A DNA stretch of 37,055 nt, from the NCBI GenBank assembly GCA_035623075.1, contig DASPUC010000053.1, positions 1 through 37,055 on the forward strand, in the 5' to 3' direction. The stretch comes from Nitrospiraceae bacterium. GTDB lineage: Bacteria > Nitrospirota > Nitrospiria > Nitrospirales > Nitrospiraceae. The notes under the pieces were generated by a model. That model was given only the letters and a program-made list of their open reading frames with translations, was not told the DNA's origin and ran no database searches. Numbering within the stretch: position 1 is the stretch's first letter; each line of letters starts with the position of its first letter. The translations under genes and the position numbers were made by a program. Of this stretch, positions 10,411 to 35,161 are shown piece after piece.

Positions 10411-10613
10411 TGGTGTATCAATTAATATTTTACCGCGGCAATTTTAATAGGGAATAGAAAAAGGGGTTGAGATTCTTCATGGGATCGTCTCGCCACACGC
10501 AGCTGTTGGTCTTCTGAAGTACAACCATTCCGTCATGCCTTCATGCGGCTTGACGCTGTGACCCTTCGCACATTAGCATTCCGCTTGCTTCGGGATCTTT
10601 GGGGGTACCGGCT

Positions 10614-10997
10614 TTGTTCAGACTCAGACCATTTCTCGTGTTCGCCCTCGCGCTTGTTACGGTCGTCCGTTCATCTTTGCCTGTCCAGGGGCTGCAGGAG
10701 GATGCCAAATTCGTCGCGATCGAGGAGAACGGCGCAAAAATGTGGCGGGGTGGCGGGACGATTAATCTGAAGGCGCAGGGTATCAGGCCGCTCACGTTCA
10801 AGGTGATCAATACACTGACCACAGAGCACGGGTTCACGATTGATTCGATGAAGGTGAAAGAAGTGATTCAACCCGGCGAGGAAAAGAACATTGACGTTCC
10901 GCTCGCGGATATTGACAGGACCGTTTCGGCTCACCGCGCATACTGCCATCTCCATCCCAAGCACGTCGCCGCCGCGTTTGTGGTAACGATGAAATAA
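10614..10997 (+). CDS. Nitrosocyanin-like cupredoxin
   Basis: The exported product (127 residues from a TTG start) has an N-terminal signal peptide and a single cupredoxin domain. The C-terminal half resembles nitrosocyanin, the red copper protein of ammonia oxidisers: TTEHGFTID, then VKEVIQPGEEK, then AYCHLHPKHVAA. Known nitrosocyanin binds copper through Cys, two His and a Glu. Here E71, C111 and H114 match, but the second histidine falls at H117, two residues nearer the cysteine than in nitrosocyanin as recalled. No ATG is available in frame; the TTG at 10614 follows GGGGG, and a TTG at 10599 is the alternative. It stands alone. Electron transfer or NO chemistry is inferred. Confidence 0.75.
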   Translation: MFRLRPFLVFALALVTVVRSSLPVQGLQEDAKFVAIEENGAKMWRGGGTINLKAQGIRPLTFKVINTLTTEHGFTIDSMKVKEVIQPGEEKNIDVPLADIDRTVSAHRAYCHLHPKHVAAAFVVTMK

Positions 10998-11714: not shown

Positions 11715-12272
11715 TTACTTGGGCGGGAAATGGGACAACATCTCATGAACGATGGTTCTGATCCGCTCGTCCCGTTCTTCGGACGTGAGTCCCGGGTCAA
11801 CTTCGCCGGCCGCGGTGCCACGCCAGGCCAGTTTGTTCGAAGCCGCGTCGATAATATCGATCAGTAAAGTGCCGGTCGTATAGGGTTGGGGCTCACCGCC
11901 CGTTGGCGCACCGCTTGACGACCGAGTTGTCAGGCGCGGAGCGTGCTCGTCGGAAAAATGCTGTGTGACATCCGCGACCATATCTTTCACGCCGACATGG
12001 TAGGCCACATAGAAATCCGGCTTTTTATCACCAGACGTCGTATAGCCCTTTAAGCGCAGTTGCGCTCCGATGACGGTTCGGAGGCGAATATTGACCTGCG
12101 AGTTGTCCACACGCCTGTCACCGGTCTTCTCTTGTTCGCCCGGCATCCATGTGTAGGTGTGATAGCCGCTGAAATTTGCGCTAGGGTCGTAGTCGTACCC
12201 GATCTTCGGTGATGCACAGGCTGCCGCAGCCGCCATCAGCAGGAATGCGCATACTGATTGCTTCCATATCAT
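11715..12272 (-). CDS. DUF4136 lipoprotein, downstream copy
   Basis: A signal sequence ending in AAAAC predicts a lipoprotein, then a DUF4136 domain starts with PKIGYDYDPSANFSGYHTY and runs through DKKPDFYVAYHVGVKDMV, TLLIDIIDAASNKLAWRGTA and the DERIRTIVHEMLSHFPPK tail. DUF4136 proteins are envelope lipoproteins of unknown function. An AGGAG precedes the ATG. It follows the paralogue at 12306-12845 by 33 bases on the same strand, so the two form an operon from a local duplication. Confidence 0.9.
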   Translation of the reverse strand: MIWKQSVCAFLLMAAAAACASPKIGYDYDPSANFSGYHTYTWMPGEQEKTGDRRVDNSQVNIRLRTVIGAQLRLKGYTTSGDKKPDFYVAYHVGVKDMVADVTQHFSDEHAPRLTTRSSSGAPTGGEPQPYTTGTLLIDIIDAASNKLAWRGTAAGEVDPGLTSEERDERIRTIVHEMLSHFPPK

Positions 12273-12305
12273 CTTGAACTCCTGAGACTCGCTTTCCCAG
12301 GCGAG

Positions 12306-12845
12306 TTACTTGGGTGGGAAGTGAGCGAGCATGGCTTGGACGACGCCGTTGATGCGTACGTCTCGCTCCTCGGGCGTCATGCCAGGATCAATTTCCGCCA
12401 ATGCGGAAGCTTGCCAGACCACCTTTTTTGATGCGGCATCGATGATGTCGATGAGGAGCGCGCCTTCTTTGTACGGCTGTACGTCCCGAACTGTAGTGAC
12501 CGTGCCGTACGCCCGATCGCCGATGTAATTCCGCGCGGTGGTTTCCTTCATCATATCCTTTACTCCCACATGATAGGCCACATAGAAGTCCGGAGTACCA
12601 TCGGCGGGCGCTGTATAGCCTTTTGAGTTGAAGTGTGCGCTTATGGTTGTTCGAATGCGGGTATCGACAAGCGAATTGTCCAGGCGTTTGTCGCCGGTCG
12701 CCTCCTGTGTGCCCGGCACCCATGCATAGGTATGGTAGGTGCTGAAATTCGTGCTGAGATCATAGTCGTATCCGACTTTCGGTGACGCACAGGCGACGGC
12801 CGAGGCCATCAAGAGAAAGGAGCATAGGAGGTGTTTCCATCTCAT
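12306..12845 (-). CDS. DUF4136 lipoprotein, upstream copy
   Basis: This is a paralogue of the next gene downstream: MRWKHLLCSFLLMASAVAC is a lipoprotein signal, followed by PKVGYDYDLSTNFSTYHTY, DGTPDFYVAYHVGVKDMM, ALLIDIIDAASKKVVW and a tail ending in LAHFPPK. The middle region, around the conserved VKDMM segment, differs most between the copies. The start codon has no strong ribosome site. It is probably the first gene of a two-gene operon. Role in the envelope is unknown. Confidence 0.9.
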   Translation of the reverse strand: MRWKHLLCSFLLMASAVACASPKVGYDYDLSTNFSTYHTYAWVPGTQEATGDKRLDNSLVDTRIRTTISAHFNSKGYTAPADGTPDFYVAYHVGVKDMMKETTARNYIGDRAYGTVTTVRDVQPYKEGALLIDIIDAASKKVVWQASALAEIDPGMTPEERDVRINGVVQAMLAHFPPK

Positions 12846-31035: not shown

Positions 31036-31632
31036 TTATTTCTCGTCCAGTGGGATGGTAATCGCGATTCCACCCATCACGTCATTGAGCTTGAAATCTC
31101 TCTTCGGACTGAGCGGGTGGGTGTTATGACAGGTCACGCAGGCGACGGCCACGGCTCGGTCCGGGTAGATTGCCTGGTAGTAACGTTTTTGTCCGCTGGT
31201 GACGATACCTGCGACCGGACGATCCGGCTGACGAGCGAGGGTCTGTAGAGCCTTCCGCTCGAATTCCGTGGCTGGCCCGTTTCGCTGATAGATGGGGGAA
31301 AGGCCGATGAGGCGGAATCGAATGCCGGTGCCTCCTTCGGCGACAGCCCTGCCTGATTGCTGGAGAAACTGTGCGGGCAGTGGAAGGGCATTATCCTGTT
31401 CCCAATGTTCTGCTGCGATGACGATATGTTTTTCTTGCATCCGATTCACGATTTGGCTGGTATAGATCGTCCGATCCGCCTGAATGACGGCATGTACGTA
31501 GGCCGCTACCTTTTCGGCGTGGATGGCGGCTGCGGGGGCCTCACTCTTCGCATCAAGCGACGCGGCGGAGGTTGCTGATGCTAAGAGGAAGAGGATGGAT
31601 GCGGTGCTGATTGAACGCCCGACGCGGTCCAT
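31036..31632 (-). CDS. Periplasmic DUF3365 protein with c-type heme site
   Basis: The 198-residue product has a signal peptide (cleavage near TSAAS) and a DUF3365 (Tll0287-like) domain, ending with ACVTCHNTHPLSPKRDF in which C165, C168 and H169 form a CxxCH heme c site. Related heme-containing domains act as redox or gas sensors. The ATG at 31632 follows an ideal AGGAGG. The gene overlaps the end of the membrane kinase gene by 52 bases on the same strand, so it is the last gene of the sensory operon. Confidence 0.88.
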   Translation of the reverse strand: MDRVGRSISTASILFLLASATSAASLDAKSEAPAAAIHAEKVAAYVHAVIQADRTIYTSQIVNRMQEKHIVIAAEHWEQDNALPLPAQFLQQSGRAVAEGGTGIRFRLIGLSPIYQRNGPATEFERKALQTLARQPDRPVAGIVTSGQKRYYQAIYPDRAVAVACVTCHNTHPLSPKRDFKLNDVMGGIAITIPLDEK

Positions 31633-34121
31633 GTTGCCTCCTCTGGCCCCAAGGATGAATGGATCACCGGCAAGCTGATCGTGCAGCATACCCCCCCACG
31701 ATCCAGATTCTCAACGCGGATGTCGCCGCCGAACTTTCGGATGATCCGTCGAGCGACTGTCAGTCCCAATCCTGAGCCTTCCCCTTGTCCTTTCATGGTG
31801 AAAAACGGATCGAACACCTTTGAAAGGTGCTCGGACGGAATCCCACGCCCAGAATCCTCAATCGTGATGATTACGGCCTTATTGTCAGCACTGGTCGCGA
31901 CGCGAAGCGTCCCAGGACCCGGCATCGCCTGAACGGCGTTCGTCAGGATGTTCATAAACGCTTGGCGGAGTTGCTCAGGGCTTGCTGAAACTCGGGTTCG
32001 ACATGCGTAGTTCTTGTGAATCTCCAAGCGACTGAGATCCTGCGTCGTCTGCAATGCCGTCAGTGCCTGATCGAGCTCCAGGTGAATATCGACAGGAGTA
32101 AGCCGAGTCCCCGTATCGCGCGTAGCCACGCCGGTAAAGTCTCGGATGATCGCCGCCATGCGTCGTCCGTGCTGGACAATGTCGCGGGCATGAGCCTTGA
32201 CGTGATCGAGGTTGACCTCCTCTTGAATGGCCTCTCCGAGTCCCAGGATGCCGAAGAGCGGGTTGTTCAGCTCGTGGCCGATGCCGGCAGTGAGGATGCC
32301 GAGGCTGCCGGATTTTTCCGCCTGGATGAGTTGGTCTTGTAAACGACTTTCGTCCGTTGTATCGCGCAATACAAGACCAACGCGAGAGCCTTCGCCCGGC
32401 CGTCCGTCAGTTCGAAACCACTCATAATGGTAGACCCGCTGCCCCAAACGCAGTTCGCTCCGTCCGTCTGTGCGGGCGCCCGTGAGTGTCGGCGCGAGAG
32501 GATCACGAGGTTCCTTCACCAACACATCCGCTGCTTTTTCCGTCGTCGGCAGACCTGTATCCTCCCGTTCCTGAAATTCCTTTCGTAGGCGCTGTTGTGT
32601 CGGAGCGTCGAGTGGCAAGATGTCGAAGAGACTTGTGGAGGGCGAGAGAGACGCCGACAACCCCAATGACTCCTGTGCGGCGTGATTCACGTATTGCACC
32701 TGTGCCTGGGCGTCAACCATGAGAATAGGTGTCGGCACTGCGCTCAGGATCTGATCGGTTGATCGCTCAAGAGACTGGACTTCTTGAGTCTTCAAGGCGA
32801 CTTGATCCGTGAGACCAGCGAATGCGGCTTCCAGCTGTTTGTTCATCCGGTTGAAATCATCGGCAAGGGCTTCCAACTCATCGCCGGTCTGAATCTGGAT
32901 CGACTGCCGCAGTTCACCTCGCCCAATGGATTCCGCAGCCTTTTGCAGTTGGCGGATCGGCAGCACGATCCGATTGGCTGCCAGATACCCGAGGGCCACG
33001 AGTAGACAGACGGCAACCAGTCCAAAGATGCTCATCCAGGTAAAGAGATGGTGGATCGGAGCAAACAATTCGTCGGAGGATTGCCAAACAAAGGTGTTCC
33101 AGCTGCCCTCTTCGAGCCTACCGTTCGTGGCTCGGCTGGTTTCTGGAAGCGGTGCGAATCCGATGATCGAAGTCGAGTGCCCACCATGGCCGTCGCTCGG
33201 GGCGGCGACCCAACCGGGATAAAAGGGAGTCACGAGCGGGATCAGCGATAGATCGGACAAACTGACTCCGGTGGGAAGAATCGGACAGCTCATCACAATG
33301 CCTCGACTGTCGATCAGCATCACGTGTCCAGTTTTCCCGAAGCGGATGGGTTGGATCGAGGGGGAGAAAAACTCCTTGGCATCGATGACGCGGTGGAGCA
33401 CCCCGACGACCTCGTAATGGAGGCTGTCCATGATCGGGACTGAGAGGGTAAATGCATAGGTTTCCGCCCGTTCATGATAATAGACATCTTCGATGTACAA
33501 CTGACCGACCCCTTTGTGATACGCGCCGATCCACCAGGGTTCACTGCCATTCGAATAGTTGGGACGGGTGGTCAATGCCGCCACGAGCGAACCTTGCGTA
33601 TCTGTGACAAATAAGAGTTTCGTGGCCGCTCGGACGACTTGGGGCAGGAGCTGCTCTTGCTCACTTTGGGAGCCGCTGTAAAAACTGCGAAGCAGGTTGG
33701 CCAAGTGGCTGCCTGTCACGGCCTTGACGATGCCGGGTTCCTTCGCATCCCATTTGGCGGCAGCATCGTTGATGGTTGCACGAACGGCGCGCAGGCTCTT
33801 CTGATCTCGGAGATTGTTGAGGTTATCGCGCCGACGTTCCAATTCGGTGACAATAGTCGGATCTCGCGCGATGCGCGATGTACGGGCGACTTCCTCGGCT
33901 ACCAGGATATCCAGCTTTCGGGCTGTCTCCGCAGCCAGTGCCTTAAAGCTTTCGCCGTTGACTTCCTGGATTTCTCGGGATCCCTGCCAGAACGCCATCC
34001 CCAATCCGACAAGCAAGGGAAGGACTCCGACCATCAGCATCGATAAGATCAGTTTCGGTTGAAGCCCCCAACCCTTGCGAGGGCCGATCCTGGATGGATT
34101 TGGTGATGCCATAACACTCAC
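31581..34121 (-). CDS. Membrane sensor histidine kinase with Cache, HAMP and PAS regions
   Basis: The 846-residue product has TM1 (about 23-45), a periplasmic dCache-like domain (about 50-350), TM2 (about 360-385), a HAMP segment (IVLPIRQLQKAAESIGRGEL), a PAS-like domain (about 460-580), a dimerisation helix with phospho-acceptor H616 in GIGHELNNP and a HATPase domain with the N box, DSGRGIP and GEGSGLGL. The start is a GTG that overlaps the stop of the upstream kinase gene, with an ATG three codons later. It probably senses a small periplasmic ligand. The gene downstream encodes a heme protein. Confidence 0.93.
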   Translation of the reverse strand: MSVMASPNPSRIGPRKGWGLQPKLILSMLMVGVLPLLVGLGMAFWQGSREIQEVNGESFKALAAETARKLDILVAEEVARTSRIARDPTIVTELERRRDNLNNLRDQKSLRAVRATINDAAAKWDAKEPGIVKAVTGSHLANLLRSFYSGSQSEQEQLLPQVVRAATKLLFVTDTQGSLVAALTTRPNYSNGSEPWWIGAYHKGVGQLYIEDVYYHERAETYAFTLSVPIMDSLHYEVVGVLHRVIDAKEFFSPSIQPIRFGKTGHVMLIDSRGIVMSCPILPTGVSLSDLSLIPLVTPFYPGWVAAPSDGHGGHSTSIIGFAPLPETSRATNGRLEEGSWNTFVWQSSDELFAPIHHLFTWMSIFGLVAVCLLVALGYLAANRIVLPIRQLQKAAESIGRGELRQSIQIQTGDELEALADDFNRMNKQLEAAFAGLTDQVALKTQEVQSLERSTDQILSAVPTPILMVDAQAQVQYVNHAAQESLGLSASLSPSTSLFDILPLDAPTQQRLRKEFQEREDTGLPTTEKAADVLVKEPRDPLAPTLTGARTDGRSELRLGQRVYHYEWFRTDGRPGEGSRVGLVLRDTTDESRLQDQLIQAEKSGSLGILTAGIGHELNNPLFGILGLGEAIQEEVNLDHVKAHARDIVQHGRRMAAIIRDFTGVATRDTGTRLTPVDIHLELDQALTALQTTQDLSRLEIHKNYACRTRVSASPEQLRQAFMNILTNAVQAMPGPGTLRVATSADNKAVIITIEDSGRGIPSEHLSKVFDPFFTMKGQGEGSGLGLTVARRIIRKFGGDIRVENLDRGGVCCTISLPVIHSSLGPEEATWTASGVQSAPHPSSSS

Positions 34122-35161
34122 CGTTGCGAAACAGTCTCTTGCGTCAGAAACGTCAGCGTAAACGTCGAACCCTTATCGACTTCGCTGTCGACTGCGATGC
34201 TCCCGTGCATTTCATGGACGATGTTTCGAACATTATATAACCCCAGTCCCGTCCCTTTCCCCGGGGGTTTGGTCGTGAAAAACGGCTCGAATATTTTCTC
34301 CTTCAACTCCGGTGCGATCCCGCAGCCGGTGTCGGAGATTCGAACGTCGACCGTATCGGCCGTCACGCGGGAATCCAGAGTCAACGTTCCGCCGACGTGC
34401 TCCATGGCGTGGACAGCATTCGTGATGAGATTCACGAACACGTGCAAGAGCTCATCCGGGTTGCCGCGGACGGCGGCTCCTTGCGTATAGTGCTTGACGA
34501 CGTCGATATCATGGAGTCGGGCTGCGTAGCGAGCTATTTTAAGTGCCTCGTCGAGCTTCCCGTTGATCGAAACAAGGCTTCCATCCGAAGCGGACGATTG
34601 ACGGGAATACCGTGTCAGGTCTTGGCAAATGGCTGAGGTCCGCTTGACGGCGTCCACGATTTCTCGGGCCTGTTCCTTGATGGTGGGAAGGTCACGTTCT
34701 TCGATCAGATTCTCGGCCAAGCCCATGATCAGCTGAAGAGGATTATTGATGTCGTGTGCGATACCGGTTGCAAACGATCCGATCCCGGCCAACTTTTCCG
34801 CCTGCATTAATTCAGCTTGCAACGCCGATTCATGCTGGATGATCTGCCAGAGCAGGCGGGACGCCGAACCACTCAATAACTCTGTCGTTGTCGGTTTCTG
34901 CGTGCGCAGAACCGCTTCCATGCCGGGATCGCCCGTGACATCGAGAATCAAGCCGATCTCAGGGTTCCGGACCAGTGCCGCGACATCGGTGGTCACGGGG
35001 ATCTGATACTCGCGGGCGCGCTGCAAGCCGGGCGCGCGCGGATCACGATCGGCGATCCCGACGACCTCGATAGACGAAATCTGATGGAACAAGTCCAAGA
35101 GCGCTCTGCCTCCGCGCCCTGCTCCCACGATCGCGACTTTCGTGGGGAGAGCAATGTCCAT
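34118..35161 (-). CDS. Soluble histidine kinase with N-terminal Rossmann (NAD-binding) domain
   Basis: Residues 1-105 form a Rossmann-type domain with VAIVGAGRGGRALL (GxGxxG) and an acidic end to strand 2 (GIADRDPRAP), as in NAD-dependent dehydrogenases and CoA-binding proteins; a DVTGDPGME segment follows. Residues 115-190 hold the dimerisation helix with H136 in GIAHDINNPLQL, and 230-340 hold the HATPase domain with DTGCGIAP and GKGTGLGL. There is no transmembrane segment. The layout suggests a cytosolic redox or cofactor sensor. It ends with a stop that overlaps the next kinase gene; AAAGG precedes the ATG. Confidence 0.92.
   Translation of the reverse strand: MDIALPTKVAIVGAGRGGRALLDLFHQISSIEVVGIADRDPRAPGLQRAREYQIPVTTDVAALVRNPEIGLILDVTGDPGMEAVLRTQKPTTTELLSGSASRLLWQIIQHESALQAELMQAEKLAGIGSFATGIAHDINNPLQLIMGLAENLIEERDLPTIKEQAREIVDAVKRTSAICQDLTRYSRQSSASDGSLVSINGKLDEALKIARYAARLHDIDVVKHYTQGAAVRGNPDELLHVFVNLITNAVHAMEHVGGTLTLDSRVTADTVDVRISDTGCGIAPELKEKIFEPFFTTKPPGKGTGLGLYNVRNIVHEMHGSIAVDSEVDKGSTFTLTFLTQETVSQR

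Follow-up and report, generated by a model that had tools for sequence, protein, structure and literature searches.

The window analyzed here, a 37,055-nucleotide stretch of a Nitrospiraceae genome assembly (GCA_035623075.1, contig DASPUC010000053.1), carries on its forward strand at 10599-10997 an open frame for a 132-residue cupredoxin with a predicted Cys-His3 copper site. Alignment with orthologs confirms that this open frame is a real gene. The orthologs share 51-62% identity with it and are found in Nitrospirae metagenome assemblies such as NS_1, NS_4, NS_12, and FW300_bin.52, among others. Differences from one of them, L061, are distributed 39/24/66 over the three codon positions, and this third-position excess suggests a protein under selection. 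The G+C content of the gene is 0.55, compared to 0.56 for the window. An earlier note on this DNA had reported a TTG start, and the frame is confirmed, but the TTG codon at 10599 is preferred over the noted one at 10614, which would yield a product of 127 residues, since with the upstream codon the N-terminus equals that of L061 in length; the stop codon is at 10995-10997. Residues are numbered here from TTG 10599, so that E76, H77, C116, H119, and H122 are the E71, H72, C111, H114, and H117 of the earlier note. Residues 1-31 (10599-10691, forward strand; MGVPALFRLRPFLVFALALVTVVRSSLPVQG) are predicted to form a signal peptide, based on the sequence and on alignment with L061 over its length, with a putative cleavage site at the end of this segment. 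The N-terminal region is hydrophobic, and the predicted model places a helix of low confidence at residues 10-25. Minus-strand ORFs overlapping the gene were rejected as genes, as the reverse of 10614-10997 contains one stop and their ortholog matches are only mirror images.

The gene is isolated, as had been noted previously: its neighbors in the window never recur beside its orthologs. Upstream lies a divergent ORF and downstream a same-strand ORF, neither of which could be assigned to a family. No conserved gene neighborhood was detected around the window gene or its orthologs, and thus no redox partner is named by the neighbors. No RNA families or tRNAs were found in the window, and a comparison to plasmid records returned no match. 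Elsewhere in the window, two adjoining DUF4136 genes on the reverse strand (11715-12845) are probably a tandem duplication, and the reverse strand at 31036-35161 holds sensor genes, in which a dCache/HAMP/PAS histidine kinase adjoins a Tll0287-like protein and another histidine kinase.

The closest known counterpart of the encoded protein is nitrosocyanin (NcyA; structures 1iby, 1ibz, and 1ic0), and the evidence supports its assignment as a nitrosocyanin relative that lies outside that family proper. The nitrosocyanin equivalog model TIGR03096 was the sole notable NCBIfam match to the window protein as a single sequence, with a score of 26.1 bits (E 5.8e-6) against a curated cut-off of 142.85 bits, indicating that the protein is not nitrosocyanin proper. 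A profile built from 20 family members and searched against solved structures identified 1iby with an E value of 1.4e-23, and matched Bacillus Cupredoxin_1 at 2.6e-11 and nitrous-oxide reductase at approximately 1e-8; alignment with nitrosocyanin, suggested in the earlier note, therefore bears out the relationship, with other cupredoxin families weaker in sequence. Pfam Cupredoxin_1 (PF13473) scored the window protein at 20.2 bits (gathering threshold 27), and 19 of the 20 relatives match this model at E 0.001 or better.

The predicted model, in which the core has pLDDT values mostly of 87-97, is a Greek-key beta sandwich of cupredoxin type, and on this model the fold class is that of a mononuclear cupredoxin. 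A fold search returned 259 chains with Z of at least 8, cupredoxins being at the top, and again placed 1iby nearest at Z 12.1, superposing 91 residues with an rmsd of 2.1 Å at 26% identity. Next came Bacillus 4hcg_B and Brucella FtrB (8vuk), both with Z 11.3 and hence less than 1 Z unit behind, so that the fold by itself is not decisive. The Bacillus anthracis Cupredoxin_1 structures (4hcf, 4hcg, and 4hci) resemble the window protein in fold, with Z of 11.0-11.3 in effect tied with nitrosocyanin, and carry an SEHTF strand, but their sequence match is the weaker one by the profile. Features shared with nitrosocyanin include the C-x-L-H-P motif, a distal His as candidate fourth ligand, and an xGFxID strand; the PGE turn also listed in the earlier note is not among them, as 1iby reads AGE there. 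The description as nitrosocyanin-like thus holds for kinship, where family model and profile, and by less than 1 Z unit the fold, rank nitrosocyanin best, and fails for membership by the TIGR03096 score. Other Nitrospirota genomes give a similarly divided answer: the wider family is widespread in them, but the TIGR03096 cut-off was passed in none of 295.

The predicted copper ligands are His77 of the HGF sequence (10827-10829), Cys116 as the thiolate (10944-10946), His119 at Cys +3 (10953-10955), and His122 at Cys +6 (10962-10964), all on the forward strand and assigned from the alignments. The last three fall in the motif C-H-L-H-P-K-H, giving a C-x2-H-x2-H arrangement. Nitrosocyanin has C-x2-H-x4-H instead (CQLHPKniH in 1iby), with the distal His at Cys +8, and the profile alignment shows this as a two-residue insertion in nitrosocyanin between the His at +3 and the distal His. 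The earlier note had remarked on this difference of six versus eight residues; comparison with 1iby confirms it and shows it to be a family-wide feature, as the longer spacing was found in no collected relative. In the same alignment His77 falls without a gap on Glu60, the copper ligand of nitrosocyanin, so that the window protein has a His in place of this Glu. An alignment of 20 members spanning Nitrospirota, Elusimicrobiota, Myxococcota, Binatota, Actinomycetota, and Coatesbacteria shows N71, H77, G78, C116, L118, H119, and H122 to be invariant, together with the start Met.

A wider family set of 147 rows, for the most part taken from 295 sampled Nitrospirota genomes, allowed intact and decayed members to be compared. 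All four ligand residues (His, Cys, His, His) are present in 108 rows, and the His at +6 is found in all of the intact members. Trp49 (10743-10745, forward strand) is conserved in 126 of the 147 rows. The residue preceding the HGF His, Glu76 in the window protein (10824-10826, forward strand), is by contrast not a predicted ligand; among the 108 intact rows, 76 have E there and 18 have D, and the other 14 carry A, V, T, K, or Q. Another 37 rows are decayed, and in each the first His and the Cys are gone together (replaced by R/D, Q/N or S, or Y/N), while the acid is retained in 34 of them. In L042, an outlier, the +6 position is Met (C-x2-H-x2-M, the spacing of amicyanin), and the L052 row is spurious. 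A motif count made without alignment found 109 sequences with HGF..CxLHxxH, and none with the nitrosocyanin spacing or with EGF. The tree requires at least six state changes, with L042 counted among the lost rows, and provides four independent pairs that all change in the same direction; these agreeing pairs are suggestive but are too few for significance (sign test, p 0.125). With the adjacent acid variable, the HGF His constant, and the ligands lost together, the data are most naturally read as a Cys-His3 site in which His122 is the fourth ligand, and the sequences most likely describe such a site on a loop of amicyanin length with His replacing the axial Met. His122 could alternatively play a second-sphere role rather than an axial one. 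The His directly following the Cys was rejected as a ligand, as this position is H in 101 rows and Q in 43.

The host genome encodes three members of this family: the window gene, an intact 159-residue paralog with EHGF and CHLHPAH motifs, and a decayed copy with DRGF and DHLNPKD. The intact paralog, which belongs to a longer type and keeps the Cys-His3 residues, is on contig C24 (L002, 1486-1965), where its neighbors encode NusA, RimP, a DUF192 protein, a ferredoxin, and a methyltransferase and do not indicate a redox partner. The decayed copy, also of the longer type, is on contig C29 (L003, 1372-1851) and has lost all four ligands (to R, D, N, and D). The frequency of such decayed copies in the family suggests that a metal-free form may have been retained for some use. 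A third subtype is represented in L044 (1624-2085) and L046 (1233-1679), with the first His and the Cys changed to Q and S/N and the last His kept; an intact relative, L072 (6650-7045), is found in an NS_11 assembly. The nitrosocyanin model also touches a second cupredoxin in the host genome, on contig C9, which is of another, more conventional kind that ends in Met.

The two types in the host differ in their distribution. Within the host's family, 78 of the 79 genomes sampled have a match to the long paralog type, and the short type seen in the window was found within that family only in the host genome (one genome of its genus) and otherwise in NS-type lineages, with which it clusters with tree support of 100/98. 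The short type may have been either acquired from NS-type lineages or retained in the host. Ammonia monooxygenase (AMO) is absent from the host genome, which is 99.93% complete; the same search yields AMO hits for 27 of the 118 family genomes, and the wider cupredoxin family occurs both with and without it. Because AMO is absent from the host and the wider family is near-universal in Nitrospirales, a link of the window protein to ammonia oxidation is unlikely. The earlier note had seen a bearing on nitrogen metabolism; for ammonia oxidation this is not supported. Contig C26 of the host carries adjacent genes for DMSO-reductase-type proteins of 1148 and 429 residues (L176, 1567-6390), which score far below the NCBIfam type II family cut-offs; they have the sizes of Nitrospira NxrA and NxrB and are probably these two subunits. 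Together with a NirK-like protein encoded in the same genome, these subunits suggest that the host is probably a nitrite oxidizer. The gene ncyA is described as known only from ammonia-oxidizing bacteria (PMC6967387), and the lack of TIGR03096 matches above cut-off among the 295 Nitrospirota genomes is consistent with this. In Nitrospina, Nitrospira, and Kuenenia, the NXR cluster is reported to include two cupredoxin-like proteins (PMC3578206).

We propose that the window gene probably encodes a small periplasmic cupredoxin of one domain, in which His77, Cys116, His119, and His122 would hold a single copper and which would serve as a single-electron shuttle; the protein is related to nitrosocyanin but retains a His at the place of Glu60. 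Following export to the periplasm and cupredoxin folding, Cys116, His77, and His119 would provide the usual type-1 trigonal set, and His122, located on a C-x2-H-x2-X loop where a weak axial Met usually sits, would act as a closer and stronger axial ligand. By analogy with azurin engineered to carry an axial His, the site may be of type 1.5 or resemble type 2, with a green or red color and a lowered, low-to-middle potential, and act in one-electron transfer in the periplasm; nitrosocyanin would differ in presenting Glu60 where its relative in the window keeps a His. As no conserved neighbor names a partner, electron transfer would be the default function for this fold.

Several known copper sites offer comparisons. 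Amicyanin, whose type 1 blue copper site has a C-x2-H-x2-M loop, shares the ligand-loop spacing and the canonical first His, but the window protein has a His for the axial Met and is closer in sequence to nitrosocyanin. The azurin ligand loop is longer; Met121His azurin nonetheless resembles the predicted site in having a Cys and three His with a His in the axial place, although that protein was engineered whereas the arrangement in the window protein is natural and conserved in its family. CuA domains, as in nitrous-oxide reductase and cytochrome oxidase subunit II, share the HGF first ligand and the cupredoxin fold, with profile matches of 1e-8 and weaker, but have a binuclear site with two Cys on a longer loop, an arrangement that is absent from the window protein. 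Mutation of the axial Met is reported to turn blue copper sites green or red, with Met121His azurin classified as type 1.5 (ref 20 in PMC4059628). In a laccase, replacement of the axial Met by His left the potential similar (371 vs 357 mV) with a loss of efficiency (PMC6487685).

In the earlier note the glutamate adjacent to the HGF His had been taken as a ligand, which would make the protein a true nitrosocyanin with a His2-Cys-Glu red copper site formed by Glu76, Cys116, His119, and His122. Nitrosocyanin is indeed the closest known structure, and 94 of the 108 intact members, the window protein among them, have an acid immediately before the His. However, it is the neighboring His that is invariant and aligned on Glu60, and the acid behaves unlike a ligand, being missing from 14 members with intact sites and kept in 34 of the 37 paralogs that have lost theirs. 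With a score of 26 bits against a cut-off of 142.85 in addition, we regard this reading as very improbable. A role as a copper carrier or store, in which the Cys-His3 set would hold Cu(I) for periplasmic copper enzymes such as NirK or oxidases with no electron transfer, seems unlikely. The four ligands would make a strong set, the copper-handling cupredoxin CupA and the metal-binding domain of CopA are included among the fold matches, and the family is distributed across nitrifiers with copper enzymes; yet carriers of the CupA/CopA type use other ligand sets, and no copper-homeostasis gene adjoins the window gene or its orthologs.

There is also a slight chance that the site is catalytic, with NO or some other small molecule as its substrate, and is a Nitrospira counterpart to the NO oxidoreductase role proposed for nitrosocyanin. 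Such a function would fit the kinship with nitrosocyanin and the presence of the wider family in nearly all sampled genomes of the host's family, and comammox Nitrospira lack ncyA, for which another candidate has been called for (PMC6478695). Against this, the family is just as present where AMO is absent, the window subfamily was found within the host's family only in this genome and otherwise in NS-type lineages, a fourth protein ligand would leave the copper without an obvious open position, and even for nitrosocyanin the role has yet to be proven. The preferred reading of the window protein is thus still that of a Cys-His3 electron-transfer cupredoxin.

Taken together, the nitrosocyanin-related family extends beyond the window gene, is undescribed, and does not track ammonia oxidation, which removes the suggestion that the window gene brings the nitrosocyanin of ammonia oxidizers into Nitrospira. 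A search of open-access papers found no CxxHxxH cupredoxin. Nitrosocyanin has been described as the sole type-2 (red) cupredoxin characterized in detail (PMC4059628), and widespread relatives with a His for the Glu ligand provide a natural comparison for the origin of the red site. They also offer a predicted natural case of an axial His as a copper tuner, previously studied in engineered azurin, and the near-universal presence of the family in Nitrospirales, in intact or decayed form, points to an uncharacterized periplasmic copper protein in nitrite oxidizers. More tentatively, and with considerable doubt, this Cys-His3 family, unnamed in the libraries searched, may be the source of nitrosocyanin, which would have gained two residues in the loop and exchanged the His for Glu; the members of the family would then provide natural green or red copper sites, other than that of nitrosocyanin, for periplasmic electron transfer in nitrite oxidizers. 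One tree nests nitrosocyanin in the wider family (support 89), and a second, built with NosZ CuA outgroups, places it as weakly supported sister to the whole family (85/54). Two unusual members were also encountered in the survey. The L042 protein, a 172-residue product of a reverse-strand frame, combines THGF with C-x2-H-x2-M and so links the two loop versions, that with Met and that with His, and L070 (7854-9158) encodes a 435-residue protein in which an N-terminal Cys-His3 cupredoxin domain is followed by further sequence in an unusual fusion.
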